Both the position numbers and the translations under genes were made by a program. Source: Sphaerolaimus hirsutus (taxonomy: Eukaryota > Nematoda > Chromadorea > Monhysterida > Sphaerolaimidae). Taken from it: a stretch of DNA of 64,000 nt. Shown here piece by piece: positions 8,915-60,714 of the stretch (positions within the stretch are counted from its first letter, which is position 1; each line of letters begins with the position of its first letter). Location: positions 30,506,794-30,570,793 of the forward strand of contig OZ038450.1 in NCBI GenBank assembly GCA_964036195.1, in the 5' to 3' direction. The notes under the pieces are model-generated. The model worked only from the letters and a program-made list of their open reading frames with translations. It ran no database searches and was not told the origin of the DNA.

Positions 8915-8927
8915 GTACCGATGACTA

Positions 8928-25210: not shown

Positions 25211-25332
25211 CTAATTCTTGTTGCCACAGGAAAAGTGCCTGATTCCATGTGAACAGAGCCTAAGCACGAGAGACAACTCTGAAATGTGTTAATAAGTGGC
25301 CTAATGTGGCTGCATCTCGCCGCACATCGCAG

Positions 25333-25458
25333 ATAAGTGCAAGAACAAATGCAAAGATGACCAGTTGTGCCTAACCGAACGCAACGGCCATCACCGAACT
25401 CGCCATTGCGTGCCTATGTTGAATTCCAAAAATGCTGTCTATGATGGCGTTGCCACAG
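25333..25458 (+). CDS. Variable Cys-rich exon, right gene copy
   Basis: A 126-nt exon with acceptor CACATCGCAG and donor GTTAGT, phase 1 at both ends. It encodes KCKNKCKDDQLC, then a loop LTERNGHHRTRH, then CVPMLNSKNAVYDGVAT. The left copy (412-534) is one codon shorter. It shares KCKDDQLC and the tail but has an unrelated first segment and loop. The bases just before the exon (TGTGGCTGCATCTCGCCGCA) are the same in both arms. The difference is therefore concentrated in the coding segment. Confidence 0.75.
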
Positions 25459-25498
25459 GTTAGTTCACAGTTTGCTCTACTCACCAATGGGTCCTGCT

Positions 25499-26365
25499 TA
25501 GGGTGTCAAAAAAATTTTTTTACGGAAAATGGAAAACGGAAAGGTAAAAATTATTCACTTTACGGAAAACGGAAAACGAAAAGGTAAAAAAAAATTTCTG
25601 CCAGAAAACGGAAAGGTAAAAAAAATTCACTCAGCGGAAAACAGAAAAACGAAAAGTAAAAAAAATTTATTGGCTGGAAAACGGAAAACAAAAAAAATGA
25701 AATGCTGGAAAATGGAACACGGAAAGCAAAATTTTCACGGAAACGGAAAAAATAATGTGAAATTTGCACAAAAATGGGCAAATTTGCAGAAGGAAAACCT
25801 GCATGCCGGTTTGCCTGTTTGGCTTTGATTGTGGTAGCTGTACATTCTGCAACTATGGACTATGCCAGTAACTTCACTTGTAGTTCAAGCTTGACTGAAC
25901 CAACAAAAAATCATCAAAAGGTAGCAAAAATACACTACAACAACAAAAAGAATTTAACAAAAGTGAACTTTGATGTAACTGAACAGTAAAAAGAATACTC
26001 AGCAGACTGCAAAGTATGTGTCCAAAATTACTTTGTGTTTTTTAAAGATTTGGATACAGATAAAAATTATGAACAACACAAGAACCTGGTGGTTAAAAAC
26101 ACCATAGTGAAAAAAGATAAATACAGATTGGAAAAATAATAGAAAAATGCCAGAAAACTGAAAATCAAGCCAGAAAGTGAAAAAAATGGCCTGAAAAAAT
26201 GGAAACGGAAAGGTAAAAAATTTTCAGCTGGAAAACAAAAAAATGGGCCAGAAAAACGGAAACGGAAAGGTAAAAAATTTTCAGCTGCCGGAAAATGGAA
26301 AACGGAAAGGTAAAAAATTTTTGGCTGGCGGAAACGGAAAACGGAAACGGCAATTTGACACCCTA
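25499..26365. mobile_element. hAT MITE, TAGGGTGTCAAA family (right arm only)
   Basis: 867 bp with ends TAGGGTGTCAAAAAAATTT and ATTTGACACCCTA and a perfect duplication GTCCTGCT (25491-25498, 26366-26373). The left arm shows the empty target at 372-379. The inside is purine-rich GGAAAACGGAAAGG repeats around a unique core. Confidence 0.92.
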
Positions 26366-26645
26366 GTCCTGCTCACCAACGTGTACAGGTAAATATACTC
26401 GGATGACATTATGCCGTACATTTTTCCGGAGGAAACACTCCATCATGACATGATCACTTCCGTCGCCGTGATCATCTCTCGCCATCACGTGGCCAGCAGC
26501 ACGCCTTCCATAAGTTCTCGGTTGGCCATCTGCCAGCCCAAGACATAACTCCTATCTGTTTGTAGAGTATCATGTCTGCCGAGTATACTTTCTTAATACA
26601 TTTTAAAAACGTTCTGTGGCTACCATGTAACGCTGAACAACGCAG

Positions 26646-26791
26646 GCGAATTCGTGCCGTGCAAAAATCACGGCGACTGCTACAAATACCGCGAGCCGAT
26701 CGAGTGGTACTGCTGCCAGGAAAAGGAAAACTTTAAACACAAATGGCACAAGTTCGTCGCGTGTAAAATATGCAAGCCTGTAGATTTGTAA
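26646..26791 (+). CDS. Cys-rich exon, right gene copy, possibly terminal
   Basis: After acceptor CAACGCAG (branch-like GCTGAAC 15 bases upstream) the phase-1 frame reads EFVPCKNHGDCYKYREPIEW, then YCCQEKENFKHKWHKFVACKI, then CKPVDL and TAA. Six cysteines and many basic residues suggest an extracellular module. If spliced at GC|GTGTAA (exon end 26760, phase 2), the frame would join the phase-2 exon at 28827; otherwise this is the last exon. The left copy is cut by the window start. Confidence 0.68.
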
Positions 26792-28924: not shown

Positions 28925-29796
28925 GGCTATTTACACAGGTCCCGGCCAAGGACCGGGACCCGGCAAAAAAACAATTTTTTCTTCAAAAGTGAATAATTGG
29001 CGTGTTTGGGTTGTTTGCATGTTAATAAGGTGAATTATCACCAAATTAGCATGCACAAAATTGTTTTGAGACGGTTACACGCGCTGATGCATTTTCTTTG
29101 GGAGAGTATATAATTTTTTTTGGATTTGTCTGAATTTTGGCATGTAAGTACTCCTTCCTTTACTGAGTACGTATGCCAGATTTCAGCTCAGCGCGGTTAC
29201 CGGTTGTTATTTTATTGATGCTTCAATTTTTTTTCGATCACTGTGAGAAATTTTTTTTTCAGTATACAAAGGGTTTTGGTCCCTGACCGGGGACGTTCGT
29301 CCCCGGCAGGGGACTAAAAATTTGTCCCCTGTCGGGGATGAACGTCCCCGGTCAAGGACCAAAATTCTTTGTTTACTGAAAAAAAAAATTTCTCACTGGG
29401 GACATTTGACCCCGGTCGGGGCCATTTCGACGTTGCCGGGGACCGGTCCCCGGCAGGATTTCGATCACTATACAAAAATACAGTGATCAAAAAAATTGAA
29501 GTATAAATAAATTAACAACCAGTAACTGCGCTGAGCTGAAATTTGGCATGCGTACTCAGTAAACGAAGGAGTACTTACATGCCAAAATTCAGACAAATCC
29601 AAAACAAAAATTATACACTCGCCCAAATAAAATGCACCAGCGCGTGTAACCGTCTCAAAACAATTTTGTGCATGCTAATTTGGTGATAATTCACCTAATT
29701 AACATGCAAACAACCCAAACACGCCAATTATTCGCTTTTGAAAAAAATTATTTTTTGCCGGGTCCCGGTCCCCGGCCGGGACCTGTGTAAATAGCC
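28925..29796. mobile_element. Mutator-like foldback element, complete
   Basis: 872 bp with ends GGCTATTTACACAGGTCCCG and its complement and a perfect 9-bp duplication GCCAAATCA (28916-28924, 29797-29805). Almost the whole element is self-complementary about a centre near 29335. The 9-bp target and long terminal repeats point to the Mutator superfamily. This is the reference copy for the family. Confidence 0.9.
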
Positions 29797-30639: not shown

Positions 30640-31712
30640 CAGGGTGGTGCAGGTCATAATTTGCTCCCAACACGTCAATTTTAAATGAAAACTGCTCAAA
30701 TTTGGTATGGCAGTAGATAAATGTACCCCATTTGTTGTGTTAAGTGCGTGGTGTCATATCGCAAGAGCTCATGTTCAAACGTGAAGCACAGTGGCATACG
30801 TGTTTGAACGTGTTCCATTGGCACACCGCACAATCAATATTGGAAAGGGTGGTTCAAACGTTTTTTTCATTTACACCCGGGCGGAATTCTAAAATCGGTT
30901 TAGACGATTTTGTTAATGACAAGACTGAAAACATACTGCAATTTGGGCTGGTTCGGACGATTTTGAATTCCGCCGTGCTTTTTTGAACCTTCAAGCAAAA
31001 TTTTGAACCTTCAAGATGCTGTCAAGCTGTCAAATCAGCTGTGCTACCTAGTAGCTGCATGGTTCAAGGAACCTAAGCAAAATTGGTTAATCATTTGTGT
31101 ATTGTCATGGATAATGGCCGTGGTTGTGTGGACTTATGTTGTTTGGCTATTTACACAGGTCCCGGCCGGGGACCGGGACCCGGCAAAAAATAATTTTTTT
31201 CAAAAAACAATAATTGGTGTGCATGGGTTCTTTGTGTGTTAATTAGGTTAATTAACACCAAATTTGCATGCACAAAATTTCTGCACGACGGTTACACACG
31301 CCGATGCAATTTTGTTGGGGGTGTAATTTTTTTCTCTTTTTTCTCAAATTTGGCATGCGTGAACTGCTTCGTTTAGTGAGTAAGCACGCCAAATTTCAGC
31401 TCAGCGCGGTAACCGGTTGTCATTTTATTAATACTTCAGTTTTTTTCGATCACTATATTTTTGTATAGTGATCAAAATCCTGCTGGGGCCCGGTCCCCGG
31501 CAATGTTGAAATGGCCCCGACCGGGGTCAAACATCCCTGGTGAGAAAATTTTTTTTTCAGTAAACAAAGAATTTTGATCCCTGACCGGGGACGTTCGTCA
31601 CACACAAAATGTCACACATTTTTCTACTTCCATACCTAATTTGAGCAGTTTTCAATCAACATTGTCGTCTTGGGAGCAAATTGAAAATGTGTGCCTGACA
31701 TGCGCCACCCTG
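30640..31712. mobile_element. Mariner-like element, CAGGGTGG family
   Basis: Ends CAGGGTGGTGCAGGTCA and TGACATGCGCCACCCTG, with TA on both sides (30638-30639, 31713-31714). It contains an internal truncated Mutator-like fragment from GGCTATTTACACAGG at about 31144 to about 31600. A second copy is at 51058-52437. No transposase frame seen. Confidence 0.8.
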
Positions 31713-34594: not shown

Positions 34595-35086
34595 CCGGAA
34601 TTAGAGCTCAGCGTCGATTCGACGTGAAATGATGACGTGAAATGTTGTCGTGAAATTAATTACACAAGTGTGGATCATGCTACGGGTCTACAATTTTCTA
34701 AGGATAATATATGAATCAATACCTTAATCGTGTCCAATACTGAGTGTTATCAGCCACAACTAGAGCGAATTGAAAAATTCAATTTTTATCATTTCACGTC
34801 ATCATCATTTCACGTCAGAGTGTCAGGGAACAACTTGACATTTCACGTCAGACTTTTGCAAGCAATATAGTAGCAAGTTAGAAAATGGAAAAAGGTGGAA
34901 AAACTGAAAATTTAGCCGGAAAATGGAAAATGAGCCAGTAAAATGGAAACAGAAAAAAAGTGGCTGGAAAACAGAACGGAAAACGGAGAGAAAAAATTCA
35001 GCAGCCAGAAAACGGAACGGAAAACGGAAAAAATTTGCCTGCGGACAACAGAAACAGAAAACGGAAAACGGAAATTTGACACCCTA
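34595..35086. mobile_element. TIR element remnant and truncated TAGGGTGTCAAA hAT
   Basis: 34595-34855 pairs ACGTGAAATGATGACGTGAA with TTCACGTCATCATCATTTCA, a palindromic MITE of unknown type. 34865-35086 is the right part of a TAGGGTGTCAAA-family hAT ending TTTGACACCCTA. Its left end is missing. Confidence 0.65.
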
Positions 35087-35186
35087 GTCATGTTGCACCT
35101 GGTGCGCGGGGGGCAGCAGTGCGCGTGGTCCCTGCAGCACACGGCATTCGGCACGGGGCAATAGCCAAAGCCCTGCACATTTCCCA
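35087..35186 (-). pseudogene. Granulin module exon, truncated
   Basis: Minus-strand acceptor CAAATAGCAG, phase 1, then GNVQGFGYCPVPNAVCCRDH, AHCCPPRTRCNM. The pattern G..GYCP.PNAVCC.DH.HCCP...C is the core of a granulin/epithelin repeat, a small stacked-hairpin secreted growth-factor module. The exon ends abruptly at the terminal repeat of a truncated hAT (35086). The second half of the 12-Cys repeat is absent on the other side, so this copy looks broken. Confidence 0.78.
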
Positions 35187-35311
35187 CTGCTATTTGAAGG
35201 GTTTCGTTCCATAAGTGCGTAAGCGCCAAAATCACAAAAATCGAGTTAAGCATGGACTCGACGTCCACATATATGTTTGTACATTTTAGAAAAAAATTTA
35301 GTGTCATAGTT
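35187..35311. other. Sequence upstream of granulin exon
   Basis: On the minus strand this would be intron or an upstream exon. The frame is open through LALTHLWNETLQIA, but no splice border supports coding. Confidence 0.3.
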
Positions 35312-36348
35312 AGTGATGGAATGGCGCCATGGCGCTGGCGCCATTTGAGGGCGCCAAAGGGCGCCGCGCCATGGCGCCATTGGCGCTTGGCGCCCTTTTT
35401 CTGTGGCGCCCTTGGCGCCTGGCGCCCACTTTCTGAAAGGCGCCATGGCGCCCTTGGCGCTTGGCGCCCTTTATCCGTGGCGCCCTTGGCGCCTGGCGCC
35501 CTGCCCTAAAAGGGCGCCAAAATGGCGCCAGCATGGTTTCAAGGTGAGTGCTGCGTGAATGAATAAAAAAGAAAAAATGGGTCTGTGAATGATCAAAATT
35601 CACTGGAAAATAGACAAAGTGGTGTGAGTGGGTGTATATGTTTCATCCAATTTTTATCAGATGCGTGTAACGGATCAGAAGCTGAGCATGATAGGCCGGT
35701 GAACTTGCAAACTCGTAAATCAACGGATTGAAATTATCGGAATTCCGTTGTCGTCCGCTTCAAGCAAACATATATAGGAAAATCTATTTGATGTGCATTC
35801 ATTGTTTTGTCGAATGAGGATTTTCAAATTTTTTGAATTGATTACCACGTGTGAGTACGGTTTTTGCACCAAAGTTTGTTGCTAGTCTCATTTTTACTGA
35901 TTACATCCTGGAGAACATGAATAAAGAAGTGAATGTGTGCACTACAGTGCTGGAGAAGCATTTTTAGCACACGCAGGGTATTCTACTCGCTTTTTTATTC
36001 TGGCGCCATTGGCGCCTGGCGCCCTTCTTATCAATTGGCGCCATGGCGCCCTTGGCGCTTGGCGCCCTCTTTCCGTGGCGCCCTTTTCTAATGGTATAAC
36101 CATACCAAACCATTTTAAAGCGATTAAAATGGGCAAAAAAGTTATAAAAAGTGGTGGTTTTGGGCGAAAATTGGGGTGGATTTTCTCAAAAATACTCACA
36201 TTTACGTTTTCCAGGGGAAAAAGTACGTTTACTCACGAGTAAAAGTAAAAAAAATTTACTTTACGTTTTCTGTACTCAGGGGGTGAGTAAAAAAATATAC
36301 TTTACATTTACGTATACTTTGAAAAAAGTTCTGTACTTTTAACAACTC
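35312..36348. mobile_element. GCGCC-array hAT and CAGAGTTG hAT fragments
   Basis: 35312-35540 begins TAGTGATGGAATGGCGCC and is a dense GGCGCCCTTGGCGC array. A second array is at 36001-36088. Between them is unique AT-rich DNA. 36190-36348 is the end of a CAGAGTTG-family hAT (ACTCACGAGTAAAAGT to AACAACTCTG). No matching target duplications found. Confidence 0.6.
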
Positions 36349-36788
36349 TGTATTTTACATTGCACCTTTTATTTATCGTTGTGCTGTAAGTCCACATTTA
36401 ATGCATTTTATGCACATTGACTTAACGATATCTATATCGACTCGGCATCACACATTGACTAACGCATTTGTTGCCGTTTTTACCACAGAAAGAGTGCACT
36501 TTTTCCTGTAGATGGTTGAAAAGTGTCCCTAATTGTCCCAAAAATTACAGTGCAGTTGGCACTGGCAGGAGAACTACCTGATTTCACCGGAATTTTTTTC
36601 CGTATCAACATCGAAAACTATGATGATATTTTGATGAATCTTTTCAAATACTTGGCCGACATCACACTTAGTATCAAAAAATACCATAATTAATCTGAAA
36701 AATGAACCAAAGTATACAGTTTTTCATCATATTATTTTGTTTTTACTATGGAATAAGTAATTATGTACGAAATTTATCGAAATTATTT
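36349..36788. other. AT-rich flank of palindrome 2
   Basis: No element or exon recognised. The last nine bases, AAATTATTT (36780-36788), are the left copy of the direct repeat that flanks palindrome 2. Confidence 0.5.
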
Positions 36789-37560
36789 GGCTATTTACAC
36801 AGGCCCCGGCCGGGGACCGGACCCCGGCAAAAAATAAATTTTGTCAAAAAACAATAATTGGTGTGCATGGGTTCTTTGTGTGTTAATTAGGTTAATTAAC
36901 ACCAAATTTGCATGCACAAAATTTCTGCACGACCGTTACACACGCCGACGCAAATTTTGTTGGGGGGGTGTAAAATTTTTTTTGATTTTTCTCAAATTTG
37001 GCATGCGTGTACTCCTTTGTTTAGTGAGTACGCATGCCAAAATTTAGCTCATAGCGGTTACTGATAATTTTTTTATTGACACTTAAATTTTCGTTAAATA
37101 CTGTATTTTTTATAGTGCATGAAATCCTGCCGGGGACCGGTCCCCGGCAATATTGAAATGGCCCCGACCGGGGCCATACGTCCCCGGTGAGGAAATTTTT
37201 TTTTCAGTATACAACGAAATTTGGTCCCCGACCGGGGTCGTTTGGCCCCGGTACCACACTAAAATTTATGGTACTTTTTGGGACTTTGTGGTAATTGTCC
37301 CCGGTCGGGGCCAAACGACCCCGGCGAGAAAAATTTTTTTTAGTATACAACAAATTTTCGTCCCCGACCGGGGTCGATTGGCCCCGTGCCCATACCACAC
37401 AAAAATTTATGCTACTTTTTGGGACTTTGTGGTAACTGTCCCCGGGCTAAACGACCCCGGCGACAAATTTTATTTTTGTAAACAGAATTTTTGACCTTAC
37501 AAAAGGTCCATTCGGCCCTTGTGCTTCAGAAAGATTATTGCATTAGGGTGTCGACTGAGT
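36789..37560. repeat. Mutator-like terminal region, left end of palindrome 2
   Basis: Terminal GGCTATTTACACAGG, then blocks of GGCCCCGACCGGGGCCA and GCATGCGTGTACTCCTTTG shared with other family members. Mirror at about 49912-50684. Confidence 0.8.
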
Positions 37561-38421
37561 TAGTTTTATTTTTTGTGATTTCACTCAAATAGGTATGCAT
37601 GGTCGGGCTGAAAAGTCCCTGGACAGTGCTCGCCATTTGCGCTAGGGGCGAGCTACTGTCACAAAATTTTAACACGTAAACATATCAGGTGTTTTGAGTT
37701 TTTACCCAAAATTTCACCCCTCAAGCTCCACCCACTGCGGAACTGTGGGTGTTACAATTTCGGTCATTTTGTACTGATGTACACATGGTGCTCTAGCTCA
37801 ACGCTGCTTTAAGTTGTGATCGCGAAACTTTGGCTAGTGTAAGCCACCGGTGTTGGCAATGTGCTGATAGTATTCAACACTTTCATCAACAACACTGCTA
37901 TTAAGGTAAAATTAATATGCAAATCAGGGTGATGTGCAAGAAACGTGGGAACTGATGGATGTTTTTGGTGATCATCTGAGATCATGTTGTATTGCAGTGA
38001 TTTTAATGTTGTTTTGAAATGTGCAGTAAATAATTATGTACATTAAATTTCATTTGTGTTGTGACCAAACATTTTTGTTTGCTCAAATAATCCCCCAGTC
38101 CTGAGATTAGGGCGTCTATACAAAGGCGTTCATTTTGTATGCCTTATCTGGACATTGATTTTGAAGCTTAATAAGTTGGTCATTTATGGGCTGTTTATGA
38201 GCGGTCAACAATTAAAATGATCAGGACAGCGTGCAGATTAAATTTGTGTGGTCGGATTAGTGATGTGTAAATTTCATATGCTGATTTGATCCAGTTGAAT
38301 GAAAATGCATGCAATTTCAGAACTCAATATCTCAGCTATTTCTCAACCAATTTTCACCAGTAAACAATTAAAATGATCAGAATCACCTGGAGCTTCCATA
38401 TTTATGTTCTGATTATCAGCT
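37561..38421. other. Palindrome 2 arm, unique sequence
   Basis: No exon or named element. It includes GCGCTAGGGGCGAGCTACTG and two copies of a CAATTAAAATGATCAG segment. Mirrored at about 49053-49912. Confidence 0.45.
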
Positions 38422-38789
38422 GCCACGCTTAGACCCTGTAAAAGACCCTGAAAAGTGGTCAAAGACCCTGTAAAATGTGATGTGTCATGTAAAATAGCAT
38501 GTAAAGTGTCACGTGTATCCAAATCTTATTTTATCATATCCAAATCTTATGTTTTTGTATCCAAATCTTACTTTTTAGATAAGATTTGGATACAACAACA
38601 TAAGATTTGGATACAAAAACATAAGATTTGGAAACACATGACACTTGCCAGGGTCTTTTACATGACATTTGACAATTGACAGGGTCTTTTACATGACACA
38701 CAACATTTTACAGGGTCTTTTACATGACACATGACATTTTACAGGGTCTTTGCCACTTTACAGGGTCTTTTATAGGGTCTGGGAGTGCC
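38422..38789. mobile_element. GTAAAG-type TIR element, palindrome 2 left arm
   Basis: It runs from CCACGCTTAGACCCTGTAAAAG to TTTTATAGGGTCTGGGAGTGCC, with repeated TTTACATGACACATGACATT and a TAAGATTTGGATAC palindrome inside. It ends seven bases before the signal-peptide ATG. Mirror at 48704-49052. Confidence 0.65.
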
Positions 38790-38795
38790 CCCAGC

Positions 38796-38909
38796 ATGTG
38801 GTCTATGCCCTTTCTAGTTTACACACTATTATTATTTTGCATATGGACTGCAGCAACATCTTTTGATCTCCAAATGATCGAGATTGTGAATCACATTTGT
38901 GATTTATAA
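38796..38909 (+). CDS. Signal-peptide frame in palindrome 2, left arm
   Basis: ATG at 38796 opens MWSMPFLVYTLLLFCIW, then TAATSFDLQMIEIV. The hydrophobic core followed by small residues is a convincing secretory signal. The right-arm copy (ATG at 48698, minus strand) reads MLSMPF with T/P later. The exon end is unclear; unspliced, the frame stops at 38909, and a 13-base insertion relative to the right arm falls just before that stop. The likely role is the first coding exon of a secreted protein carried in the arm. Confidence 0.5.
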   Translation: MWSMPFLVYTLLLFCIWTAATSFDLQMIEIVNHICDL

Positions 38910-39633
38910 TGATCTATGGTGCACAGCAATAATTACTTTGAATGGCTCTGTCAGTGACAGATTATTGTTAGAATTGTTTTTTTACAATGTGGTATTTATT
39001 GTGGCATATATTTTGCAATGGGACACATTTGTAAATTGAAAAAGTTCACATTGATGCAATTGAATAGTCAATGTTTGATTTATCAAGTGGAGCATTTGAT
39101 GTTTGCATGTGTTTTACTCTGCTCCAACATGATAGGCACATGGTTTCTGCATGGTACTTTTACAAAGTGCAGAAAACTTGTAACCTACATGTTTCGTTGT
39201 CAAAATTGAAACAGCTACTCAATTGAGCCCTCAATAAATTCCACTTTGAATACCCCCATGGTGCTTTTGGCATACGAGCACCAAACACAAATAGCGCCAG
39301 CGCCAAAAGCAAGATTATGCCTAATCGAGTCAAAAAAAATAAAGATAAAGTTGGCCTTGAATAGTGATGTAAAAAACGCCAGACTTTTGTGGCCATATGC
39401 CAATGGCGCCACAGCAAAATGGCCAAAAGCGCCATGGCACTTTTCAAGAACAAGGCGCCAAGCACCAATGGTGCCAAATGATGTTGGCACAAAGCGCCAA
39501 TGGCGCCAGCGCCAAAAACTTTTTGCTGCTCCTCAAGTGCAGCAATGCTAATGCAGTGCTATTTACTTGTGTAAGATGCAAGATAACACCTAATCAAGAC
39601 AAGTTTTTGTCTTTTTGTGATGTGTTTTTACAG
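38910..39633. other. Arm sequence with GCGCC-family hAT
   Basis: About 39363-39525 has the start TAGTGATGTAAAAAACGCC and TGGCGCCAGCGCC array motifs. The remainder is AT-rich. Mirror at about 47860-48600. Confidence 0.5.
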
Positions 39634-39721
39634 CTGCGAGTTCCGGTTGACAATGGCAAGCCATCACAGAAAAAAGTGCTTAGATTTGTATTGTGTTGAC
39701 CGTGGCAAAATGGATGGATAA
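39634..39721 (+). CDS. Very weak candidate exon, palindrome 2 left arm
   Basis: Excellent acceptor TGTGTTTTTACAG. In phase 2 the frame reads CEFRLTMASHHRKKC, LDLYCVDRGKMDG and stop. Another frame is also open (LRVPVDNGKPSQKKVLRF). The mirror is at about 47772-47859 on the minus strand. A diverged copy of the last part occurs at 56400. Differences between arms do not favour either frame. Confidence 0.22.
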
Positions 39722-40833
39722 AGAAATACAGAGAATTGATAATTAGGTTCATTTTGTTCAATATCTATATTCACGCACTTTATCTATTTCATGCACTATA
39801 TTAATTTACCACGCAAAATAGATTTCCTGCACTATATTATTTATCCATGGAGAATATTTGATTAAGAAAGTGTCTTATAAGTTATTGATAGGTTTATGTG
39901 AAATATTTAAGTTATAAGGTCAAATATGTTACTATTAGGTTTATGAACATAAATTTATGTTCATTCGATTCGCCATAATTTTCTGATTATTATTATATAC
40001 ACACATGTTTAGTTTACTTGCAATTTGGGAAACTCAAATCTTATAAATAATATTTACGGTACATTATTTCACATAACTTCTTTGAATGAGCGTCCTAATA
40101 GAGAAATGGTGCCCTGTGTTTGACTAGCACGTATTTACTAAGCCCTTCGCGTAGGCATAATTATTATAGCTTTGCAATGCTTTATATATATTTATATTAC
40201 TTTGACATTTATGTTGGATACCCTGCTCAAATTATATCAAATATATTATATTAACCCTGCTCAATTAATATACCCATTTACCTCGAATAAGTCCCAATTT
40301 GCCAATTATCAAGTATACGTTTTCAGGAAGTGATTATTATGATGAATATACTCGGCTCTACTTACGACATTAGGAACATTTGCATTACTATTTACAATTT
40401 CCAACTCTATTATATTAGTTTCCAAAGTGGGTCAATGTTTTCTGACAAATTGAAACTGATTAGTAAATCGGCTGAGTTTGCCAACTTAGCGCCTCACAAG
40501 ATTAATAGTTTTTCTATTCGCCCAATTTGTACCTGGTATTTATTTACCATAAGTATTTGAATGTACACGCGCTTAGTTTAAGCCAACTGTTTTGGCTAAA
40601 TGTGTCTTATTGGTGCATTTGTGTCTTATTTGTGCATATATGTGTCTTATTGGTGTATTTGCACATTTGTATTTAGGGAATTATTGTAGCCATGTTTTTA
40701 TACACAATTTCCATGTCTTGGCTACTTTGGAAGTTTTTATTTCAGTCTTCTGACCCCAAGCTTGTGACCGACAATAAGCTTCGACTTCGACTTTGACTAG
40801 GAAGCTCGCTAACATTGCGCTTTTATATTCAAG
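39722..40833. other. AT-rich arm sequence
   Basis: Unique AT-rich DNA mirrored at about 46690-47770. A 77-codon frame at 40330-40560 is open in both arms but changes at replacement sites as freely as elsewhere, so it is not called coding. 39722-40000 resembles 57690-57860. Confidence 0.4.
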
Positions 40834-41003
40834 CTGTATCTGATCAAAATAAAGTACCTGAAACAACTTCAAAACCCCCTGTCAACCACGAAATAAACTC
40901 AACTTGGCTGTCGACAAGTGGACGTTCAGCTACAACAAGAAAATCCAACTACTCTAGAGGCCGTCACTCACTACGGTCTTGGAGTTGGCGGAATCGGTGG
41001 TAG
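40834..41003 (+). CDS. C-terminal Ser/Arg-rich exon, palindrome 2 left arm
   Basis: Acceptor TTTATATTCAAG, phase 1, then VSDQNKVPETTSKPPVNHEI, NSTWLSTSGRSATTRKSNYS, RGRHSLRSWSWRNRW and TAG. No Cys; the end is rich in Arg, Ser and Trp. The right-arm copy is open over the same length and differs by one visible replacement near the end (SWR/SCR). Together with the signal-peptide frame upstream in the same orientation, it suggests that the arm holds a small secreted-protein gene or its remnants. Confidence 0.48.
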
Positions 41004-41039
41004 AAGACGCTGACTTTGGTTGCTTCATAACATGTATAG

Positions 41040-41672
41040 ATAATGTCATGTGTCACTTAAAAGACTCTGTTTAGTGTCAAATGTCATGTAAAAGACCCTT
41101 TAAAGTGTCATGTGTATCTAAATCCTATTTTATAGTATCCAAAACTTATGTTTTGTATCCAAATCTTACCCTTTTACATAAGATTTGGATACAAGAACAG
41201 AGGGTTTGGATATGATAAAATGAGATTTAGATATCATAAAATAAGATCTGCATTCACATGACACTTTACAATGTCTTTTACATGACATTTAACACTTAAC
41301 ATGGTTTTTACATGACACCTGACCACAGTTGGTTGAAAAAAAATTATTTGTATACATATTGTAAAAAAATTGTATAAAAATTGTATTTTATTTTAATTTT
41401 ATTCGTGTTTCATGTTATTTTTTATATTTTATTCTTCAATTTTCCATTTTATTTTAATTTTTTTATTGCATTTGAACATCGCTCATTGGCCCATTATTTG
41501 GGAAAAGTGTTGAATATCCTTGCAATTGCATGAACATGTATACAAAATAAGCAGTAGAGGGTTTGTTCTTCCTGAATACACTTACAGTAACACATTTACT
41601 TCTGTAAATCATGCACACAAAATCTTTTCACACAAAATAGTGATATATTTTTTGAACTCCTTGGCACTTATT
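41040..41672. mobile_element. GTAAAG-type and AATAAAAT-type repeat remnants
   Basis: 41040-41325 repeats TGTCATGTAAAAGACCC and TCCAAATCTTA with their complements. 41345-41465 is a TTTTATTTTAATTTT tract like that in 19558-20362. The rest is unremarkable. Mirrored at about 46005-46490. Confidence 0.5.
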
Positions 41673-42493
41673 TGGCTATTTAGACAGCTCCCGGCCGGGG
41701 ACCAGTCCACGGCAAAAAATAAAAAATTTCAATAGTCTATAATTGGTGTGTATGGGTTGTTTGCCCATTAATTAGGCGAATTATCACCAAATTAGCATGC
41801 ACAAAATTTTTGCAAGACAGTTACCCACACCCATGCATATTTTTTGGGGTGTGTGTAAATTTATTTCGCTTTGGCTCAAATTTGGCATGTGTGTACTCCT
41901 TCGCTTAGTGAGTTTGCATGCCAAATTTCAGCTCAGGGCAATTATTGAATTCTATTTTATTTACAGTTTAATTTTCATCGATCACTGTATTTTTGTATAG
42001 TGATTGAAATTCTGCCTGAAGACTACAAATTTGTCCCCTGCCAGGGACAAACGTCCACGGTTGGGGACCAAAATTCTTCCTTTAGTGAAACAAAAAATTT
42101 CTCACTGGGGACGTTTTACCCCGGCCCGGTCGGGGCCATTTCGACATTTCCCCAGCAGGATTTCGATCACTATACAAAAATACAGTGATCGATGAAAATT
42201 AAAGTGTAAATAAAATAGGGTTCACTAATCGCCCTGAGCTGAAATTTGGCATGCGAACTCTCTAAGCGAAGGAGTACACACATGCCAAATTTGAGCTAAA
42301 TTGAAATAAATTTACACACCCCAAAAAATATGCATGGGTGTGTGTAACCGTGTTGCAGAAATTTTGTGCATGCAAATTTGGTGTAAAATTCACCTAATTT
42401 ACATGCAATCAACCCATACACACCAATTACTGACTTTTGACAATTTGAATTTTTTGCCGGGGACCGGTCCCAGTCGGGGCCTGTGTAAATAGC
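41673..42493. mobile_element. Nested Mutator-like foldback, palindrome 2 left arm
   Basis: Ends GGCTATTTAGACAGCTCCCG and CTGTGTAAATAGCC, flanked by near-matching 9-mers CACTTATTT and CGCTTATTT. Present in both arms (mirror about 44860-45845), so it was inserted before the arms were duplicated. Confidence 0.75.
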
Positions 42494-43095
42494 CCGCTTA
42501 TTTGTCGCTTTTTAAAATGCTACCACCGAGCACGAATGGCACCACGGCATCATTGCGCCGAGCACCAAAAGCGCCATGGCACTTTTTCATAACACAGTGC
42601 CAAGCACCAATGGCACCACAGCAAAAAGGCGCCAAGCACCAAAAGCACCATGGCGCTTGTTGCTTTGAGGCTAGCACCAGGTACCAGCGCCATGGTGCTT
42701 TTACATCACTAGCCTTGAATAACACCCCTTGAATAAATCCCTCCTCATTGAGTAATTCCTTGCTTGAGTAAGATGTGATTGAGATTAATTAGTCCTTGGT
42801 TGGTTAATTTTGTGCACAATTCCTGCGTGGTACTTGTAGACAGTGCAAAGAAGTTGTAACTTACATCTCTCTTTGCCAAAATTGATAGAGCTACTGTATT
42901 TACCTCATTTTATCCCTCTCTAACTCCCCCCTGTTAGTTGAGTTTAGGAAAAATAAAAAATACTTGCTCCCTCTAAAAAATACCACTCCCTAGTAAAACT
43001 CTTCTCTGATTGATGTCTGTGAAAACATTCATGGAAAAAAATATGTTATGTTTGTTTTCTTTTTAGTCATATATATTTTTTGTCTGTATTATGGG
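42494..43095. mobile_element. GCGCC-family hAT remnant and unique arm sequence
   Basis: 42494-42714 is a degenerate array ending GGTGCTTTTACATCACTA. 42715-43095 is AT-rich without features. Mirrored at about 44260-44858. Confidence 0.55.
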
Positions 43096-44259
43096 CAATG
43101 ATGGGTGAGTTCTCAAAAAAAAACACTTTCTGTATTTTGAGTTTTTCGAAAATGAGTTTTGAGTTTTGAGTTTTTTTTCACAAAAAAACTTGAGTTTCTG
43201 TTTCTGTGTTTTTTTAAAAACTTGAGTTTTTTGGCAAAAACTCAAGTTTTTTTTTGGTAAAAACTCAAGTTTTTTTAGTAAAAACTCAAGTTTTTTGATA
43301 AAAACTCAGTTGTTTTACAAAAAGTTGCATTTTACAGCATTTTACTGTTAAAATAGGGGTTTTCTTATCTAATATAGGTTTTGCATATGTTTTGTCATGT
43401 ATTGGAAAATTCTCATTAGTTCACTGGAGGTGGAGGTAGTTCCAAATGGGTGACCACTACATTTGACAGTATGGGAGGTGAGGAGCCCTCAGCTCAATTG
43501 TGTGAGCTAGCAGCCCCTGGTGGACACTCCTCAACACTTCAATACTGTCAAAACAACCAGGAGTTGCGGACACCATTATTTTTAGATACTTATTTCATTG
43601 TTAAACTTGGATACTATGTACATATTTACACACTATACATACATGCATACCTTATGTATGCACATACATACATTGTTCAGTTCAAACGTTGTGCCTTCAA
43701 TTGCTTGGATAAATAAAACTCAAAAAACATTTCCATATTTTCTGTGTTTCCATGTTTCCATGTTTGGCTATTTACACAGGTCCCGGCCGGGGACCGGGAC
43801 CCAGCAAAAAATAATTTTTTTCAAAAGTGAATAATTGGCGTGTATGGGTTGTTTGCATGTTAATTAGGTGAATTATCACCAAATTAGCATGCACAAAATT
43901 TTTGAGAGACGGTTACATGCGCTGATGCAAATTTTTTTTGGGGGGTGTATAAATTTTTTTTCGATTTGTCTCAAATTTGGCATGTGTGTACTCCTTTGTT
44001 ATGAATAAAATAACAACCGGTAACCGCGCTGACTGAAATTTGCATGCGAAGGCATGCACTCACTAATGCGGAGTTTTTACCAAAAAACTTGAGTTTTTAC
44101 ACAAAAAAACTTGAGTTTTTACCAAAAAACTCAAGTTTTTTCAAAAAACACAGAAACAGAAACTCAAGTTTTTTTATGAAAAAAACTCAAAACTCAAAAC
44201 TCATTTTTGAAAAACTCAAAATACAGAAAGTGTTTTTTTTGAGAACTCACCCATCATTG
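43096..44259. repeat. Centre of palindrome 2
   Basis: Both borders are the same end of a CAACGATGG-family hAT (CAATGATGGGTGAGTTCTC and its complement), so this is two facing copies and not one element. The left copy runs nearly complete to about 43760. A Mutator-like fragment follows (43766 to about 44060), then only about 190 bases of the right copy. The arms therefore meet inside a hAT, with a spacer of about 43330-44070. Confidence 0.75.
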
Positions 44260-45228
44260 CCCATAATACAGACAAAAGAATATGTGACTAAAAAGAAAAC
44301 AAACATAACATATTTTTTCCATGAATGTTTTCACAGACATCAATCAGAGAAGAGTTTTACTAGGGAGTGGGATTTTTTAGAGGGAGCAGGTATTTTTTAT
44401 TTTTTCTAAACTCAACTAACAGGGGGGAGTTAGAGAGGAATAAAATGGAGTAAATACAGTAGCTCTATCAATTTTGGCAAAGAGAGATGTAAGTTACAAC
44501 TTCTTTGCACTGTCTACAAGTACCACGCAGGAATTGTGCACAAAATTAACCAACCAAGGACTAATTAATCTCAATCAGATCTTACTCAAGCAAGGAATTA
44601 CTCAATGAGGAGGGATTTATTCAAGGGGTGTTATTCAAGGCTAGTGATGTAAAAGCGCCATGGCGCTGGTGCCTGGTGCTAGCCTCAAAGCAACAAGCGC
44701 CATGGTGCTTTTGGTGCTTGGCGCCTTTTGCTGTGGTGCCATTGGTGCTTGGCACTGTGTTATGAAAAAGCGCCATGGCGCTTTTGGTGCTCAGTGCAAT
44801 GATGCCGTGGTGCCATTGGTGCTCGGTGGTAGCATTTTAAAAAGCGCCAAATAAGTGGGCTATTTACACAGGCCCCGACTGGGACCGGTCCCCGGCAAAA
44901 AATTCAAATAGTCAAAAGTCAGTAATTGGTGTGTATGGGTTGATTGCATGTAAATTAGGTGAATTTTACACCAAATTTGCATGCACAAAATTTCTGCAAC
45001 ACGGTCACACACACCCATGCATATTTTTTGGGGTGTGTAAATTTATTTCGATTTGGCTCAAATTTGGCATGTGTGTACTCCTTCGCTTAGAGGGTTCGCA
45101 TGCCAAATTTCAGCTCAGGGCGATTAGTGAATCCTATTTTATTTACACTTTAATTTTCATCGATCACTGTATTTTTGTATAGTGATTGAAATCCTGCTGG
45201 GGAAATGTCGAAATGGCCCCGACCGGGG

Positions 45229-45394
45229 TCATAGGCGGCGCAAGTGCTTGTGCACTTGTGAATGTCACAAGCGGAATTTTCTGTGTCACAAGCAGAAATA
45301 CCTAGTTTATCTAGTAAAAAGTGTCACAAGGTCAAATTTTGGCCAATGTGATTGTGAATGTCACAAGCACAAATTGGGACCTTGCTCCGCCCAT
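45229..45394. mobile_element. Small TIR insertion in right arm only
   Basis: Inverted ends ATAGGCGGCGCAAG and CTTGCTCCGCCCAT. GACCGGGG stands on both sides (45221-45228, 45395-45402). The left arm lacks it near 42115-42140. The inside repeats GTCACAAGC. Confidence 0.7.
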
Positions 45395-46519
45395 GACCGG
45401 GGTAAAACGTCCCCAGTGAGAAATTTTTTGTTTCACTAAAGGAAGAATTTTGGTCCCCAACCGGGGACGTTTGTCCCTGGCAGGGGACAAATTTGTAGTC
45501 TTCAGGCAGAATGTCAATCACTATACAAAAATACAGTGATCGATGAAAATTAAAGTGTAAATAAAATAGAATTCACTTATCGCCCTGAGCTGAAATTTGG
45601 CATGCGAACTCACTAAGCGAAGGAGTACACACATGCCAAATTTGAGCCAAAGCGAAATAAATTTACACACACCCCACAAAATATGCATGCGTGTGAGTAA
45701 CTATCTTGCAAAAATTTTGTGCATGCTAATTTGGTGACAATTCGCCTAATTTACAGGCAAACAACCCATACACACCAATTATAGACTATTGAAATTTTTT
45801 ATTTTTTGCCGGGGATTGGTCCCCGGCCGGGAGCTGTCTAAATAGCCAAATAAGCGCCAAGGAGTTCAAAAAATATATCACTATTTTGTGTGAAAAAATT
45901 TTGTGTGCATGATTTACAGAAGTAAATGTGTTACTGTAAGTGTATTCAGGAAGAACAAACCCTCTACTGCTTATTTTGTATACATGTTCATGCAATTGCA
46001 AGGATATTCAACACTTTTCCCAAATAATGGGCCAATGAGCGATGTTCAAATGCAATAAAAAAAATTAAAATAAAATGGAAAATTGAAGAATAAAATATAA
46101 AAAAATAACATGAAACAAGAATAAAATTAAAATAAAATACAATTTTTATACAATTTTTTTACAATATGTATACAAATAATTTTTTTTCAACCAACTGTGG
46201 TCAGGTGTCATGTAAAAACCATGTTAAGTGTTAAATGTCATGTATAAGACATTGTAAAGTGTCATGTGAATGCAGATCTTATTTTATCATATCTAAATCT
46301 CATTTTATCATATCCAAACCCTCTGTTCTTGTATCCAAATCTTATGTAAAAGGGTAAGATTTGGATACAAAACATAAGTTTTGGATACTATAAAATAGGA
46401 TTTAGATACACATGACACTTTAAAGGGTCTTTTACATGACATTTGACACTAAACAGAGTCTTTTAAGTGACACATGACATTATCTATACATGTTATGAAG
46501 CAACCAAAGTCAGCGTCTT

Positions 46520-46689
46520 CTACCACCGATTCCGGCAACTCCAAGACCGTAGTGAGTGACGGCCTCTAGAGTAGTTGGATTTTCTCGTTGTAGCTGAACG
46601 TCCACTTGTCGACAGCCAAGTTGAGTTTATTTCGTGGTTGACAGGGGGTTTCGAAGTTGTTTCAGGTACTTTATTTTGATCAGATACAG
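46520..46689 (-). CDS. C-terminal Ser/Arg-rich exon, palindrome 2 right arm
   Basis: Mirror copy of 40834-41003 with the same acceptor, phase 1, length and stop codon. It ends RGRHSLRSWSCRNRW. The open frame is kept in both arms. Confidence 0.45.
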
Positions 46690-48497
46690 CTTGAATATAA
46701 AAGCGCAATGTTAGCGAGCTTCCTAGTCAAAGTCAAAGTCGAAGCTTATTGTCGGTCACAAGCTTGGGGTCAGAAGACTGAAGTAAAAACTTCCAAAGTA
46801 GCCGAGACATGGAAATTGTGTATAAAAACATGGCTACAATAATTCCCTAAATACAAATGAGCAAATAAGACACAAATGCACCAATAAGACACATTTAGCC
46901 GAAACAGTTGGCTTAAACTAAGCGTGTGTACATTCAAATACTTATGGTAAAGAAATACCAGGTACAATTTGGGCGAATAGAAAAACTATTAATCTTGTGA
47001 GGCATTAAGTCGGCAAACTCAGCCGATTTACTAATCTGTTTCAATTTGTCAGAAAACATTGACCCACTTTGGAAACTAATATAATAGAGTTGGAAATTGT
47101 AAATAGTAATGCAAATGTTCCTAATGTCATAAGTAGAGCAGAGTATATTCATCATAATAATCATTCCTGAAAACGTATACTTGATAATTGGCAAATTGGG
47201 ACTTATTTGAGGTAAATGGGTATATTAATTGAGCAGGGTTAATATAATATATTTGATATAATTCGAGCAGGGTATCCAACATAAATGTCAAAGTAATATA
47301 AATATATATAAAGCATTGCAAAGCTATAATAATTATGCCTACGCGAAGGGCTTAGTAAATATGTGCTAGTCAAACACAGGGCACCATTTCTCTATTAGGA
47401 CGCTCATTCAAAGAAGTTATGTGAAGTAATGTACCATAAATATTATTTATAAGATTTGAGTTTCCCAAATTGCAAGTAAACTAAACATGTGTGTATATAA
47501 TAATAATCAGAAAATTATGGCGAATCGAATGAACCTAAATTTATGTTCATAAACCTAATAGTAACATATTTGACCTTTTAACTTAAATATTTTACATAAA
47601 CCTATCAATAACTTATAAGACACTTTCTTAATCAAATATTCTCTATGGATAAATAATATAGTGCAGGAAATATATTTTGCGTGGTAAATTAATATAGTGC
47701 ATGAAATAGATAAAGTGCGTGAATATAGATATTGAACAAAATGAACCTAATTATCAATTCTCTGTATTTCTTTATCCATCCATTTTGTCACGGTCAACAC
47801 AATACAAATCTAAGCACTTTTTTCCGCGATGGCTTGCCATTGTCAACCGGAACTCGCAGCTGTAAAATAACATCACAAAAAGACGAAAACTTGTCTCAAT
47901 TAGGTGTTATCTTGCATCTTACACAAGTAAATAACACTGCATTAGCATTGCTGCACTTGAGGAGCAGCAAAAAGTTTTTGGCGCTGGCGCCATTGGCGCT
48001 TTGTGTCAACATCCTTTGGCACCATTGGTGCTTGGCGCCTTGTTCTTGAAAAGTGCCATGGCGCTTTTGGCGCTTGGCGCTTTTTTGCTGTGGCGCCATT
48101 GGCGTATGGCCACAAAAGTCTGGCGTTTTTTTACATCACTATTCAAGGCCAACTTTATCTTTATTTTTTTGACTCGATTAGGCATAATCTTGCTTTTGGC
48201 ACTGGCGCTATTTGTGTTTGGTGCTCGCATGCCAAAAGCACCATGGGGGTATTCAAAGTGGAATTTATTGAGATCTCAATTGAGTAGCTGTTTCAATTTT
48301 GACAACGAAACATGTAGGTTACAAGTTTTCTGCACTTTGTAAAAGTACCATGCAGAAACCATGTGCCTATCATGTTGAAGCAGAGTAAAACACATGCAAA
48401 CATCAAATGCTCCACTTGATTAATCGAACATTGACTATTCAATTGCATCAATGTGAACTTTTTCAATTTACAAATGTGTCCCTTTGCAAAATACAGT

Positions 48498-48698
48498 TTA
48501 TGCCACAATAAATACCACATTGTAAAAAAACAATTCTAACAATAATCTGTCACTGACAGAGCCATTCAAAGTAATTATTGCTGTGCACCATAGATCATTA
48601 TAAATCACAATCTCAATCATTTGGAGATCAAAAGATGTTGCTGCAGGCCATATGCAAAATAATAATAGTGTGTAAACTAGAAAGGGCATAGACAACAT
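48498..48698 (-). CDS. Signal-peptide frame, palindrome 2 right arm
   Basis: ATG at 48698 reads MLSMPFLVYTLLLFCIWPAA, then TSFDLQMIEIV. Unlike the left arm the frame continues past this point to 48498, because a 13-base segment near the end is absent. The true exon end is not identifiable. The GTAAAG-type element 48704-49052 lies immediately upstream. Confidence 0.45.
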   Translation of the reverse strand: MLSMPFLVYTLLLFCIWPAATSFDLQMIEIVIYNDLWCTAIITLNGSVSDRLLLELFFYNVVFIVA

Positions 48699-50693
48699 GC
48701 TGGGGGCACTCCCAGACCCTATAAAAGACCCTGTAAAGTGGCAAAGACCCTGTAAAATGTCATGTGTCATGTAAAAGACCCTGTTAAATGTCGTGTGTCA
48801 TGTAAAAGACCCTGTCAATTGTCAAATGTCATGTAAAAGACCCTGGCAAGTGTCATGTGTTTCCAAATCTTATGTTTTTGTATCCAAATCTTATGTAAAA
48901 AGTAAGATTTGGATACAAAAACATAAGATTTGGATATGATAAAATAAGATTTGGATACACGTGACACTTTACATGCTATTTTACATGACACATCACATTT
49001 TACAGGGTCTTTGACCACTTTTCAGGGTCTTTTACAGGGTCTAAGCGTGGCAGCTGATAATCAGAACATAAATATGGAAGCTCCAGGTGATTCTGATCAT
49101 TTTAATTGTTTACTGGTGAAAATTGGTTGAGAAATAGCTGAGATATTGAGTTCTGAAATTGCATGCATTTTCATTCAACTGGATCAAATCAGCATATGAA
49201 ATTTACACATCACTAATCCGACCACACAAATTTAATCTGCACGCTGTCCTGATCATTTTAATTGTTGACCGCTCATAAACAGCCCATAAATGACCAACTT
49301 ATTAAGCTTCAAAATCAATGTCCAGATAAGGCATACAAAATGAACGCCTTTGTATAGACGCTTTAATCTCAGGACTGGGGGATTATTTGAGCAAACAAAA
49401 ATGTTTGGTCACAACACAAATGAAATTTAATGTACATAATTATTTACTGCACATTTCAAAACAACATTAAAATCACTGCAATACAACATGATCTCAGATG
49501 ATCACCAAAAACATCCATCAGTTCCCACGTTTCTTGCACATCACCCTGATTTGCATATTAATTTTACCTTAATAGCAGTGTTGTTGATGAAAGTGTTGAA
49601 TACTATCAGCACATTGCCAACACTGGTGGCTTACACTAGCCAAAGTTTCGCGATCACAACTTAAAGCAGCGTTGAGCTAGAGCACCATGTGTACATCAGT
49701 ACAAAATGACCGAAATTGTAACACCCACAGTTCCGCAGTGGGTGGAGCTTGAGGGGTGATATTTTGGGTAAAAACTCAAAACACCTGATATGTTTACGTG
49801 TTAAAATTTTGTGACAGTAGCTCGCCCCTAGCGCAAATGGCGAGCACTGTCCAGGGACTTTTCAGCCCGACCATGCATACCTATTTGAGTGAAATCACAA
49901 AAAATAAAACTAACTCAGTCGACACCCTAATGCAATAATCTTTCTGAAGCACAAGGGCCGAATGGACCTTTTGTAAGGTCAAAAATTCTGTTTACAAAAA
50001 TAAAATTTGTCGCCGGGGTCGTTTAGCCCGGGGACAGTTACCACAAAGTCCCAAAAAGTAGCATAAATTTTTGTGTGGTATGGGCACGGGGCCAAACGAC
50101 CCCGGTCGGGGACGAAAATTTGTTGTATACTAAAAAAAATTTTTCTCGCCGGGGTCGTTTGGCCCCGACCGGGGACAATTACCACAAAGTCCCAAAAAGT
50201 ACCATAAATTTTAGTGTGGTACCGGGGCCAAACGACCCCGGTCGGGGACCAAATTTCGTTGTATACTGAAAAAAAAATTTCCTCACCGGGGACGTATGGC
50301 CCCGGTCGGGGCCATTTCAATATTGCCGGGGACCGGTCCCCGGCAGGATTTCATGCACTATAAAAAATACAGTATTTAACGAAAATTTAAGTGTCAATAA
50401 AAAAATTATCAGTAACCGCTATGAGCTAAATTTTGGCATGCGTACTCACTAAACAAAGGAGTACACGCATGCCAAATTTGAGAAAAATCAAAAAAAAATT
50501 TACACCCCCCCAACAAAATTTGCGTCGGCGTGTGTAACGGTCGTGCAGAAATTTTGTGCATGCAAATTTGGTGTTAATTAACCTAATTAACACACAAAGA
50601 ACCCATGCACACCAATTATTGTTTTTTGACAAAATTTATTTTTTGCCGGGGTCCGGTCCCCGGCCGGGGCCTGTGTAAATAGCCAAATTATTT

Positions 50694-51057
50694 ACGAAGA
50701 TTTTAATCATGAATTTATGGTAACTTTCCATACTAAGTGTGCTGTGCGCCGAGTATAGATGTATCGGCAATCTCAATAAGTCTGATCAAAATTTCTGTAT
50801 TTGACCCACACTGGTCAAAATGAACACGTTGCGTCATGATCCATTGCAGATTAATCCGCAAATGACCGCACAGATAGCTTGTGCAAACAAAAATGGTGAT
50901 TGGTCAGCGCGTTCATGCGACAATGACCGTATTCTTAAAGTGACCCTTTTTCTACCCAACCCTACAAACCTGTGCATAAAAATGGACTTAAAATGAATTT
51001 GTATTGAAAATAATGTGAACTGGAAATGCAATTGACTTTAGTCTGTGAGACGAAGTA
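50694..51057. other. Spacer right of palindrome 2
   Basis: Unique sequence with no exon or repeat recognised. Confidence 0.4.
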
Positions 51058-59775: not shown

Positions 59776-60328
59776 CCTAAGCGTAAGACTAAGGTTAAAC
59801 CAAAAAATTACCGGAAATGTGGTAAATATCACCTAAATGACATCCTGGAGGCAAAATTTTGGACCACTAGCCATTCAACAACCCCGCCCCCCAAAGTGGG
59901 CCAGCTATCTATAGATCTGGAGTAATTTTTGAGAAATTTTGACTAAATTTTTGCTCAAAATCGCTAATTGTCATACCTTTTTAGTTTTTCACCATCAAAA
60001 TCGCTGTTTGATGTGTTTCATTGCCTATTTTCAGCTATTTCTGTACTATATATGCTTATATACGAATTTTTCACCTACTTTTAGCGATTTTTTTTTCATT
60101 CTATACCTTGGAAAACCCTATATATTGAATCCCCATGAACACCCCCCAAATTTTTTTTCCAGCTATCTATCCCTCCAAAGGAGCGATTTACTATCTATAT
60201 GATTCTCCGCAGGGGTCCAAATCTACAAAATCCCATGTCCAGCACCATCCAAAGCAATGGCGTCCGGGCGCCAAACTGGCGCCAATGAAAATTGGCCAAG
60301 CACCAAGGGCACCATGGCGCCATTTGAA
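59776..60328. other. Spacer with CTATCTAT motifs
   Basis: AT-rich. 59883-60200 shares CCCCAAAGTGGGCCAGCTATC and CTATCTATCCCTCC motifs with 27600-27680. 60255-60325 has a small GGCGCC scrap. No exon. Confidence 0.4.
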
Positions 60329-60714
60329 ATAATTCATATATAGTATTTGGAAACACAGTGTTTCGACAAAAATCGGGTTTACCAATGGGCTGTGCATCAG
60401 CACCAAGTATAGCATGCTGTAGTCTTATGAACCGTGAAATTGAATGGCTGCTAAAGAAGAAGGAAAGTGGTAATAAGCTGTTTAGATGCTTTAGTTACAT
60501 AGATGATCTGCTCTTTTGCTACAAATCTACCTCAAACTTTGACCCTTTGCAATGTACTAAAGATATTTACCCCATAAACCTGCCATTAAATAGAACAGAT
60601 GATAATGGCATCAATACAGCTTTCTTGGATTTGTCTATCAATTTTAGAAATTTAGAATGGCAACTCTATGGCAAACGACAGGACTTAAATTTTAGATGCA
60701 TAACAGCCACCAAC
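60329..60714 (+). pseudogene. Reverse transcriptase fragment
   Basis: The open frame begins mid-domain (NNSYIVFGNTVFRQKSGLPM, then GCASAPS), continues to the catalytic motif FSYIDDLLF, and ends FLDLSINFRN, LYGKRQDLNFRC. Q..GLPMG, Y-I-D-D and the later FLDL...Y.KR.D.NF blocks are the palm and thumb signatures of a non-LTR-type reverse transcriptase, most like Penelope-like elements. The family is uncertain. Both ends are missing and a hAT interrupts it at 60715. Confidence 0.82.

Follow-up and report, generated by a model that had tools for sequence, protein, structure and literature searches.

A 64-kb stretch of the genome of the nematode Sphaerolaimus hirsutus (G000:C1:30506794-30570793, from an assembly of 348.5 Mb in 762 contigs), here called the window, holds a palindrome of 13,896 bp at positions 36789-50684. 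Its two arms enclose a short unpaired centre and are bounded on the outside by copies of a 9-bp direct repeat (Table 1). Very probably, this is a giant foldback transposon, apparently non-coding, that has lost its centre through internal deletion; in complete form such an element is about 19.8 kb long with arms of about 9.7 kb. A sequence-only reading of the window had already interpreted the palindrome as a single giant foldback transposon from end to end, and this proposal is borne out by siblings that combine the same ends with 9-bp duplications of different sequence, by two near-complete palindromes of about 19.8 kb, and by arm-specific differences that are shared between sites.

The termini of the palindrome are exactly complementary, as had been claimed: GGCTATTTACACAGGCCCCG stands at 36789, and its exact complement ends at 50684. 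When the two arms are aligned with each other, they differ by 112 substitutions in 6,420 columns (71 transitions and 41 transversions) and by 18 insertions or deletions (indels), 11 of which are of one base. Additionally, 169 bp present in the right arm is absent from the left arm. The left end contains direct repeats (37156-37349 and 37293-37484) that are 82% identical and spaced by about 137 bp.

Directly outside both ends stands a perfect copy of AAATTATTT, as the sequence-only reading had it, and the flanks diverge immediately beyond the two copies. The chance that two random 9-mers from the window are identical is 5.4e-5. This repeat must be read with caution: apart from the base at its centre, AAATTATTT is itself a palindrome, matching at 9/9 positions as a direct repeat and at 8/9 as an inverted repeat, and because of this the repeat finder extended the palindrome through it. 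Whether the 9-bp repeat is real is settled by the duplications of the siblings, described below. Chance palindrome ends were ruled out by the perfect AAATTATTT, the low probability of chance identity, and these sibling duplications. Other foldbacks in the window had also been said to have 9-bp duplications. This is true of the foldback at 28925-29796, where the duplication is perfect (GCCAAATCA), whereas the flanks of the small foldbacks within the two arms match at 8/9 positions, and the foldback at 657-1555 has none. At 31145-31599 lies a single half-foldback, 86% identical to the end of the giant element, for which the window contains no right half.

Siblings and the complete form

The 512-bp end of the element was searched in its own genome; 40 of 1,324 first-look candidates were scored, and the counts are lower bounds. 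At least 26 of the 40 scored end matches form 13 convergent pairs, which are 9-43 kb apart and include the window copy, while the remaining 14 are unpaired among the matches listed. Both ends were read for all 13 pairs. Eleven of the 13 have perfect 9-bp duplications, all eleven different, and those of the siblings are ATATATTTG, ACCCCTCTC, TTTATAAAA, TGTAAAAAT, TAAAGCAAT, AGTTTTTTT, AAAAATTTT, TAATTGTTT, TCATTTATG, and TATTAATAT. The family occupies many sites; its ends recur from site to site, and the 9-bp duplications vary. A search for further copies of the 13.9-kb unit had been suggested from the window; it found the family at these other sites, but the exact 13.9-kb form only at the window locus (40 of 1,555 candidates scored). 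A second subfamily is 91.6-93.0% identical in the first 550 bp or so. Inverted arms are also found in its copies C15a, C15b, C9a, C700a, and C7a, and nested retroelement frames, which we take to be BEL/Pao and Penelope-like, occur in C2a (DUF1759), C7a (GIY-YIG), and C15a (RVT_1, just below the curated cut-off).

Two siblings, C4b (19,823 bp) and C14a (approximately 19.7 kb), are palindromic nearly to the centre, with arms of approximately 9.7 kb. In C4b, positions 5320-9712 pair with 14154-9789 at 94.6%, and the outer blocks pair at 97.5-97.7%. The right arm of C4b has approximately 0.85 kb missing and approximately 1.0 kb doubled, and the left arm of C14a has one insertion and one deletion. 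The window copy corresponds to C4b 1-7192 at 98.0%, then to 12242-12310, and then to 13002 onward; at the junctions, window positions 43300-44000 match C4b 6493-7192, 44000-44066 match 12242-12310, and the sequence from 44071 matches 13002 on. This alignment shows the window copy to be a C4b-like element whose centre was lost through two internal deletions. The endpoints of the first deletion are nearly mirrored, in that 7192 mirrors 12310, the far endpoint being 12242. Terminal repeats of about 6.5 kb, as proposed in the sequence-only reading, are indeed the size of the arms here, but this is not the original arm length, since the window copy is an internal-deletion derivative. Because the exact 13.9-kb form was found only at the window locus, any later mobility of its own would be hypothetical. 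Other siblings have been trimmed in different ways: C6a is 9.1 kb, and C4a consists of one long arm and 0.66 kb of the other end.

Both near-complete siblings carry nested small foldbacks with the same type of terminus. In C4b, foldback A (4871-5688) has CACTTATTT on both sides, and foldback B (6959-7844) is flanked by TCCATGTTT and TCCATTTTC (7/9). Perfect CACTTATTT flanks of foldback A are found in the left arms of both C4b and C14a. Furthermore, each nested foldback in these two elements is mirrored in the opposite arm, where the flanks of the mirror copy match at 8/9 positions. The apex is similar to the interior of a small foldback (74-75% in comparison with 28925-29796) but lacks the termini, and adjacent plus/minus pairs resembling the apex occur at many sites. 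A foldback hairpin may have been the seed of the giant palindrome, an origin that is reasonable, if hypothetical.

Arm lineages and element ends

The relationship between arms was assessed in an alignment of nine arms from five elements, in which two inner regions were compared. Across sites, left arms differ from left arms by 0.94-1.51% and right arms from right arms by 0.28-1.40%; between the two arms of a single element the difference is 2.03-2.84%. Three elements, standing at three insertion sites, have both arms over the region. In these, 31 columns are diagnostic of left (L) or right (R), all left arms being alike and all right arms being alike but different from the left, and each of the nine other three-to-three splits of the six arm rows has 0 or 1 such column. 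The arm of C4a has the R state in 31/31 diagnostic columns, C6a-left has the L state in 15/15 readable columns (16 gaps or other), and C6a-right has the R state in 5/5 (26 gaps or other). The 169-bp indel follows the same L/R split in four elements, with the R-specific 169 bp in three and in the flipped C4a. Since L and R states are common to separate sites, the arms had diverged before the insertions, and the palindrome was transposed with both arms. The shared columns show two distinct arm lineages, co-inherited from site to site in a palindrome that moves as a unit.

Trees of individual segments recover a similar arm split in the second subfamily, where both arms are common to C9a and C15b across most segments. 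One of the arm lineages of this subfamily groups with the first subfamily in segment 4247-4676 (support 0.977), which weakly hints that the palindrome may be older than the subfamily split. The tree of segment 5803-6307 leaves the age order of palindrome and subfamilies unseparated.

The outer 1,892 positions have no arm-diagnostic columns and 12 element-diagnostic ones (three for the window copy, two for C4b, and seven for C14a), and the inner region has two element-diagnostic columns. Within these outer tracts, the arms differ at 6/1,892 columns in the window copy (to position 1,914), 0/1,214 in C4b (to 1,217), and 1/1,673 in C6a (to 1,676). The step in arm divergence was permuted for the window copy alone and was reached in 0 of 500 permutations. 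In three of the four elements tested, these counts show that the outermost 1.2-1.9 kb of the arms has been homogenised separately within each element. As the boundaries differ by element, separate events of arm-to-arm copying, each running inward from a terminus, would account for them; the likeliest cause is a terminal break repaired from the other arm.

These observations suggest a scheme in which a transposase supplied in trans would cut the shared termini and reinsert the whole palindrome. Terminal breaks would be repaired by copying the other arm, which would keep the ends identical, and the foldback-derived apex would be lost by near-symmetric deletion to give the 13.9-kb form. The 9-bp duplications are compatible with enzymes of the Mutator-like element (MULE) type, of which they are no proof. 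A broader claim, put forward tentatively and with some doubt, is that the palindrome, gene-free and about 20 kb long, is no by-product but the stable inherited form of this transposon, with two separately evolving arms kept through many transpositions and perhaps predating the subfamily split, and with new copies re-copying their ends from arm to arm. If so, transposition would include, or precede, end-anchored arm-to-arm repair, and nested insertions would be copied between arms.

Table 1. Features of the palindrome and its insertion site (window positions)
Feature	Position	Strand	Remarks
Hairpin repeat (MITE-like, ~204 bp), left part	36648..36779	.	
Left 9-bp direct repeat AAATTATTT (target duplication)	36780..36788	+	
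Left arm (L lineage)	36789..43307	+	L state common with left arms of siblings
Foldback-type end	36789..37490	+	~460 bp common with small foldbacks, then ~137-bp-spaced direct repeats
Outer tract, left arm	36789..38701	+	6 differences in 1,892 columns against right arm
Nested small foldback A, left arm	41674..42494	.	Flanks CACTTATTT / CGCTTATTT, 8/9
Unpaired centre (~0.76 kb), remaining after the deletions	43308..44070	+	
Remnant of nested small foldback B	43766..44066	.	Cut by both deletion joints (~44000, ~44067-44071)
Right arm (R lineage)	44071..50684	-	R state and 169 bp common with right arms of siblings
Nested small foldback A, right arm	44858..45847	.	Flanks AAATAAGTG / AAATAAGCG, 8/9
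Outer tract mirror, right arm	48793..50684	-	
Right 9-bp direct repeat AAATTATTT (target duplication)	50685..50693	+	
Hairpin repeat (MITE-like, ~204 bp), right part	50694..50756	.	

Insertion target and rival origins

Joined to each other, the flanks of the palindrome (338 bp) have uninterrupted counterparts at C14:23381258 (95%) and C14:13192885 (93%), and 29 more of the 40 scored flank matches are limited to about the 204-bp hairpin repeat in the middle of the query. From the uninterrupted paralogous matches it follows that the element lies within this repeat, which resembles a miniature inverted-repeat transposable element (MITE). Three aligned paralogs additionally show that both flanks belong together. 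The flanks form an inverted repeat of 42 bp (34/42), a score reached by 18 of 1,956 random pairs and by 0 of 1,000 shuffles; extension of the palindrome into the flanks was rejected as its cause, the target instead being a hairpin repeat.

Several observations weigh against the interpretation given above. Two of the 13 end pairs are without a duplication, namely C14a, in which the right terminus is lost, and C9b, in which the flanks differ. A probe for the deletion joint matched fully only at the window locus, again with 40 of 1,555 candidates scored. C14a is without end homogenisation, its arms being 1.38% apart in the outer region, a value partly due to the disrupted right terminus, which makes the first columns of that row non-homologous. 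Moreover, C14a-left and C4b-right are only 1.22% apart (over fewer than 1,000 columns). Finally, the three aligned target paralogs are without the 10 bases GAAATTATTT and hence do not present a single unduplicated 9-mer.

This last point implies either a short tandem duplication in this copy of the repeat or the arrival of the element with flanking bases. The second course, in which a captured piece of excised DNA could have been the vehicle and AAATTATTT would be the duplication of an old donor, is improbable. It would fit the paralogs, which read TTTATC-AC(G)AAG where the window site reads TTTATC-GAAATTATTT-element-AAATTATTT-ACGAAG, but 10 sibling end pairs have ordinary perfect duplications, and a short local duplication (CGAAATTTAT / CGAAATTATTT) in this repeat copy before insertion also explains the 10 bases. 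After ordinary transposition into a locally varied target, the empty allele would read TTTATCGAAATTATTTACGAAG; after arrival with old flanks, it would read TTTATCACGAAG.

Still less probable, by a clear step, is an origin in which a small foldback inserted at AAATTATTT and its inside was then expanded in place, for instance by end-copying repair of the kind suggested for Galileo or through template switching at a hairpin. In its favour, the outer 460 bp or so of the two arms look like the halves of a small foldback of the ordinary type, the centre joint lies within a hairpin-forming remnant, and end-extension of this sort has been proposed (PMC3573991). Set against this, the same arms, nested copies, and apex are found at other sites with other 9-bp flanks, the L/R differences are common to several sites, and comparison with C4b shows the centre joint to be that of a deletion. 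Later expansion inside a small foldback was the alternative offered by the sequence-only reading, and for the window copy the siblings and the deletion joint exclude it. The same two lines of evidence refuted three specific schemes: a template switch at the hairpin 43766-44070 (GAGT microhomology) with rejoining at the right end, the copying of one donor by both ends of a broken foldback, and an end-copying scheme for the window copy after PMC3573991. These schemes had fitted the window alone, but the supposed switch point proved to be the deletion joint. Expansion in place may have been the route to the founder palindrome.

An assembly artefact, in which two haplotypes or a foldback read were joined head to head, deserves almost no credence. 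Errors of this sort do affect palindromes readily, another large palindrome of the window adjoins a gap of 200 Ns, and a foldback artefact of long reads has been described (PMC12870357), but there is no gap within the unit, the flanks differ outside the direct 9-bp repeat, the arm differences are mostly substitutions, and arm-specific states recur in siblings that have long inverted arms and stand at independent sites.

The second inverted pair of the window (1-7417 and 16703-26748) differs by 3.2% substitutions and 34 indels. Its left arm continues beyond the edge of the window on one side and on the other stops precisely where the 200-N gap (7418-7617) begins. The right arm alone has four insertions of 288-875 bp, three of them with duplications (GTCCTGCT, CAATTG, and CCCGAGACC). 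This pair may be a misplaced haplotig instead of a real palindrome.

Coding content and known systems

The longest frame in the left arm of the window copy has 132 codons; among 300 order-1 Markov sequences, 82 had a frame of at least this length. In a C4b arm the longest frame has 135 codons, the expected values being 127 for the median and 170 for the 95% point. No Pfam match was found in the ten frames scanned, nine of the 81 frames of at least 40 codons in 36780-44070 and one right-arm frame. The signal-peptide frame and C-terminal exon that the arms had been thought to carry are therefore not supported. Captured gene fragments, a trait of Pack-MULEs, were not found by frame length or by Pfam on the ten frames; non-coding pieces of host genes were not searched for.

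A genome search for the MULE domain (PF10551) gave one match among nine scored candidates, a 122-aa remnant (C15:12236230-12236487) that lies between unrelated inverted repeats, without the ends of the giant element. No linked transposase and no autonomous partner element was found in this search, in which other superfamilies were not searched for and not all paired elements were read. The 9-bp duplications fit a description of the palindrome as Mutator-like, but membership among MULEs is unproven. In the 43-kb sibling C15c, 20 kb of the interior, 3.5 kb of the left end, and 161 bp of the right end were read. At approximately 7.1-27.1 kb, it contains a nested Maverick/Polinton-like set of frames with a match to the rve integrase (E = 4.8e-5, below the curated cut-off); the other frame names were assigned by eye, and two other scanned frames were without a match. 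At most three short segments of this interior (70-91 bp, 80-82%) match the parts of the siblings used for comparison. The terminus pattern had 0 matches each in IMG/VR and GTDB contigs, and scans with Rfam (gathering thresholds) and ARAGORN gave no match.

Elsewhere in the window, a frame with a Pfam Granulin match (E = 4e-10) lies at 34915-35505 on the minus strand, approximately 1.3 kb to the left of the palindrome. A reverse-transcriptase-like frame lies at 60328-60807 on the plus strand (RVT_1, E = 1.5e-4, below the curated cut-off); a protein search with it gave seven candidates, none with E <= 0.001.

The element qualifies as a foldback transposon. Long terminal inverted repeats make up most of the window copy, C4b, and C14a, repeats are found inside the terminal repeats (37156-37484), and a target duplication of constant length is seen at independent sites (9/9 in 11 of the 13 end pairs). 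It also has the 8-11-bp, usually 9-bp, target duplication of MULEs, a trait that is not specific to them; Merlin also makes duplications of 8-9 bp. The duplication of Galileo, a P superfamily element of Drosophila, is 7 bp, as against 9 bp here. Drosophila FB is an animal foldback element and is like the present family in that inverted repeats form much of it, with repeats inside them, and in that most copies are non-coding. Long palindromes are regarded as unstable, and here a nearly pure palindrome of up to about 20 kb has spread to many sites with its arms kept apart as lineages. These sites form a natural series for measuring palindrome copying, end conversion, and apex trimming, and such elements would be fragmented or overlooked in short-read assemblies.

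Giant transposons such as Teratorn, Polintons, and enlarged En/Spm are similar in reaching 20 kb and more, and Teratorn also has long inverted repeats (PMC6431247). Unlike the present family, in which no genes were detected except nested insertions in some siblings, the giant elements described there carry genes. The same source gives a fall in cut-and-paste efficacy above 6 kb and notes cargoes of 100-200 kb in artificial constructs (PMC6431247). Mutator-like elements, including Phantom/Muta1 and Rehavkus, are alike in their 9-bp duplications and long terminal repeats (PMC5225508, PMC6446971), and Muta1, with duplications of 8-9 bp, has been called a type-2 foldback (PMC5225508). The terminal repeats in the MULE survey of PMC6446971 are 14-500 bp long, in contrast to those found here, and no MULE transposase was found linked to the ends of the present element.

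Galileo resembles the present element in that its terminal repeats have grown longer through tandem repeats and through the recruitment of internal sequence, and in the near-identical ends of each copy (PMC3573991). Its terminal repeats, able to grow by such recruitment, are given as up to about 1.26 kb (PMC3573991), whereas those described here are 6.5-9.7 kb. A foldback with arms near 10 kb was not found described in the literature searched by title and abstract start, with most subscription papers and all bioRxiv preprints outside this scope. Also close are Tm1 of Meloidogyne, which has 9-bp duplications and foldback ends (PMC3169594), and Tetris of Drosophila virilis, which has 8-10-bp duplications (PMC4079207), with which the family shares inverted repeats forming much of the element, internal repeats, duplications of 9 bp (Tm1) or 8-10 bp (Tetris), and mostly non-coding copies, as far as these sources describe them (PMC3169594, PMC4079207). 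Unlike these, the near-complete copies described here have inverted repeats of approximately 9.7 kb and are palindromic over nearly the whole of about 20 kb, their arms carry nested small foldbacks with the same termini, and the two arms are separate lineages kept through transposition.

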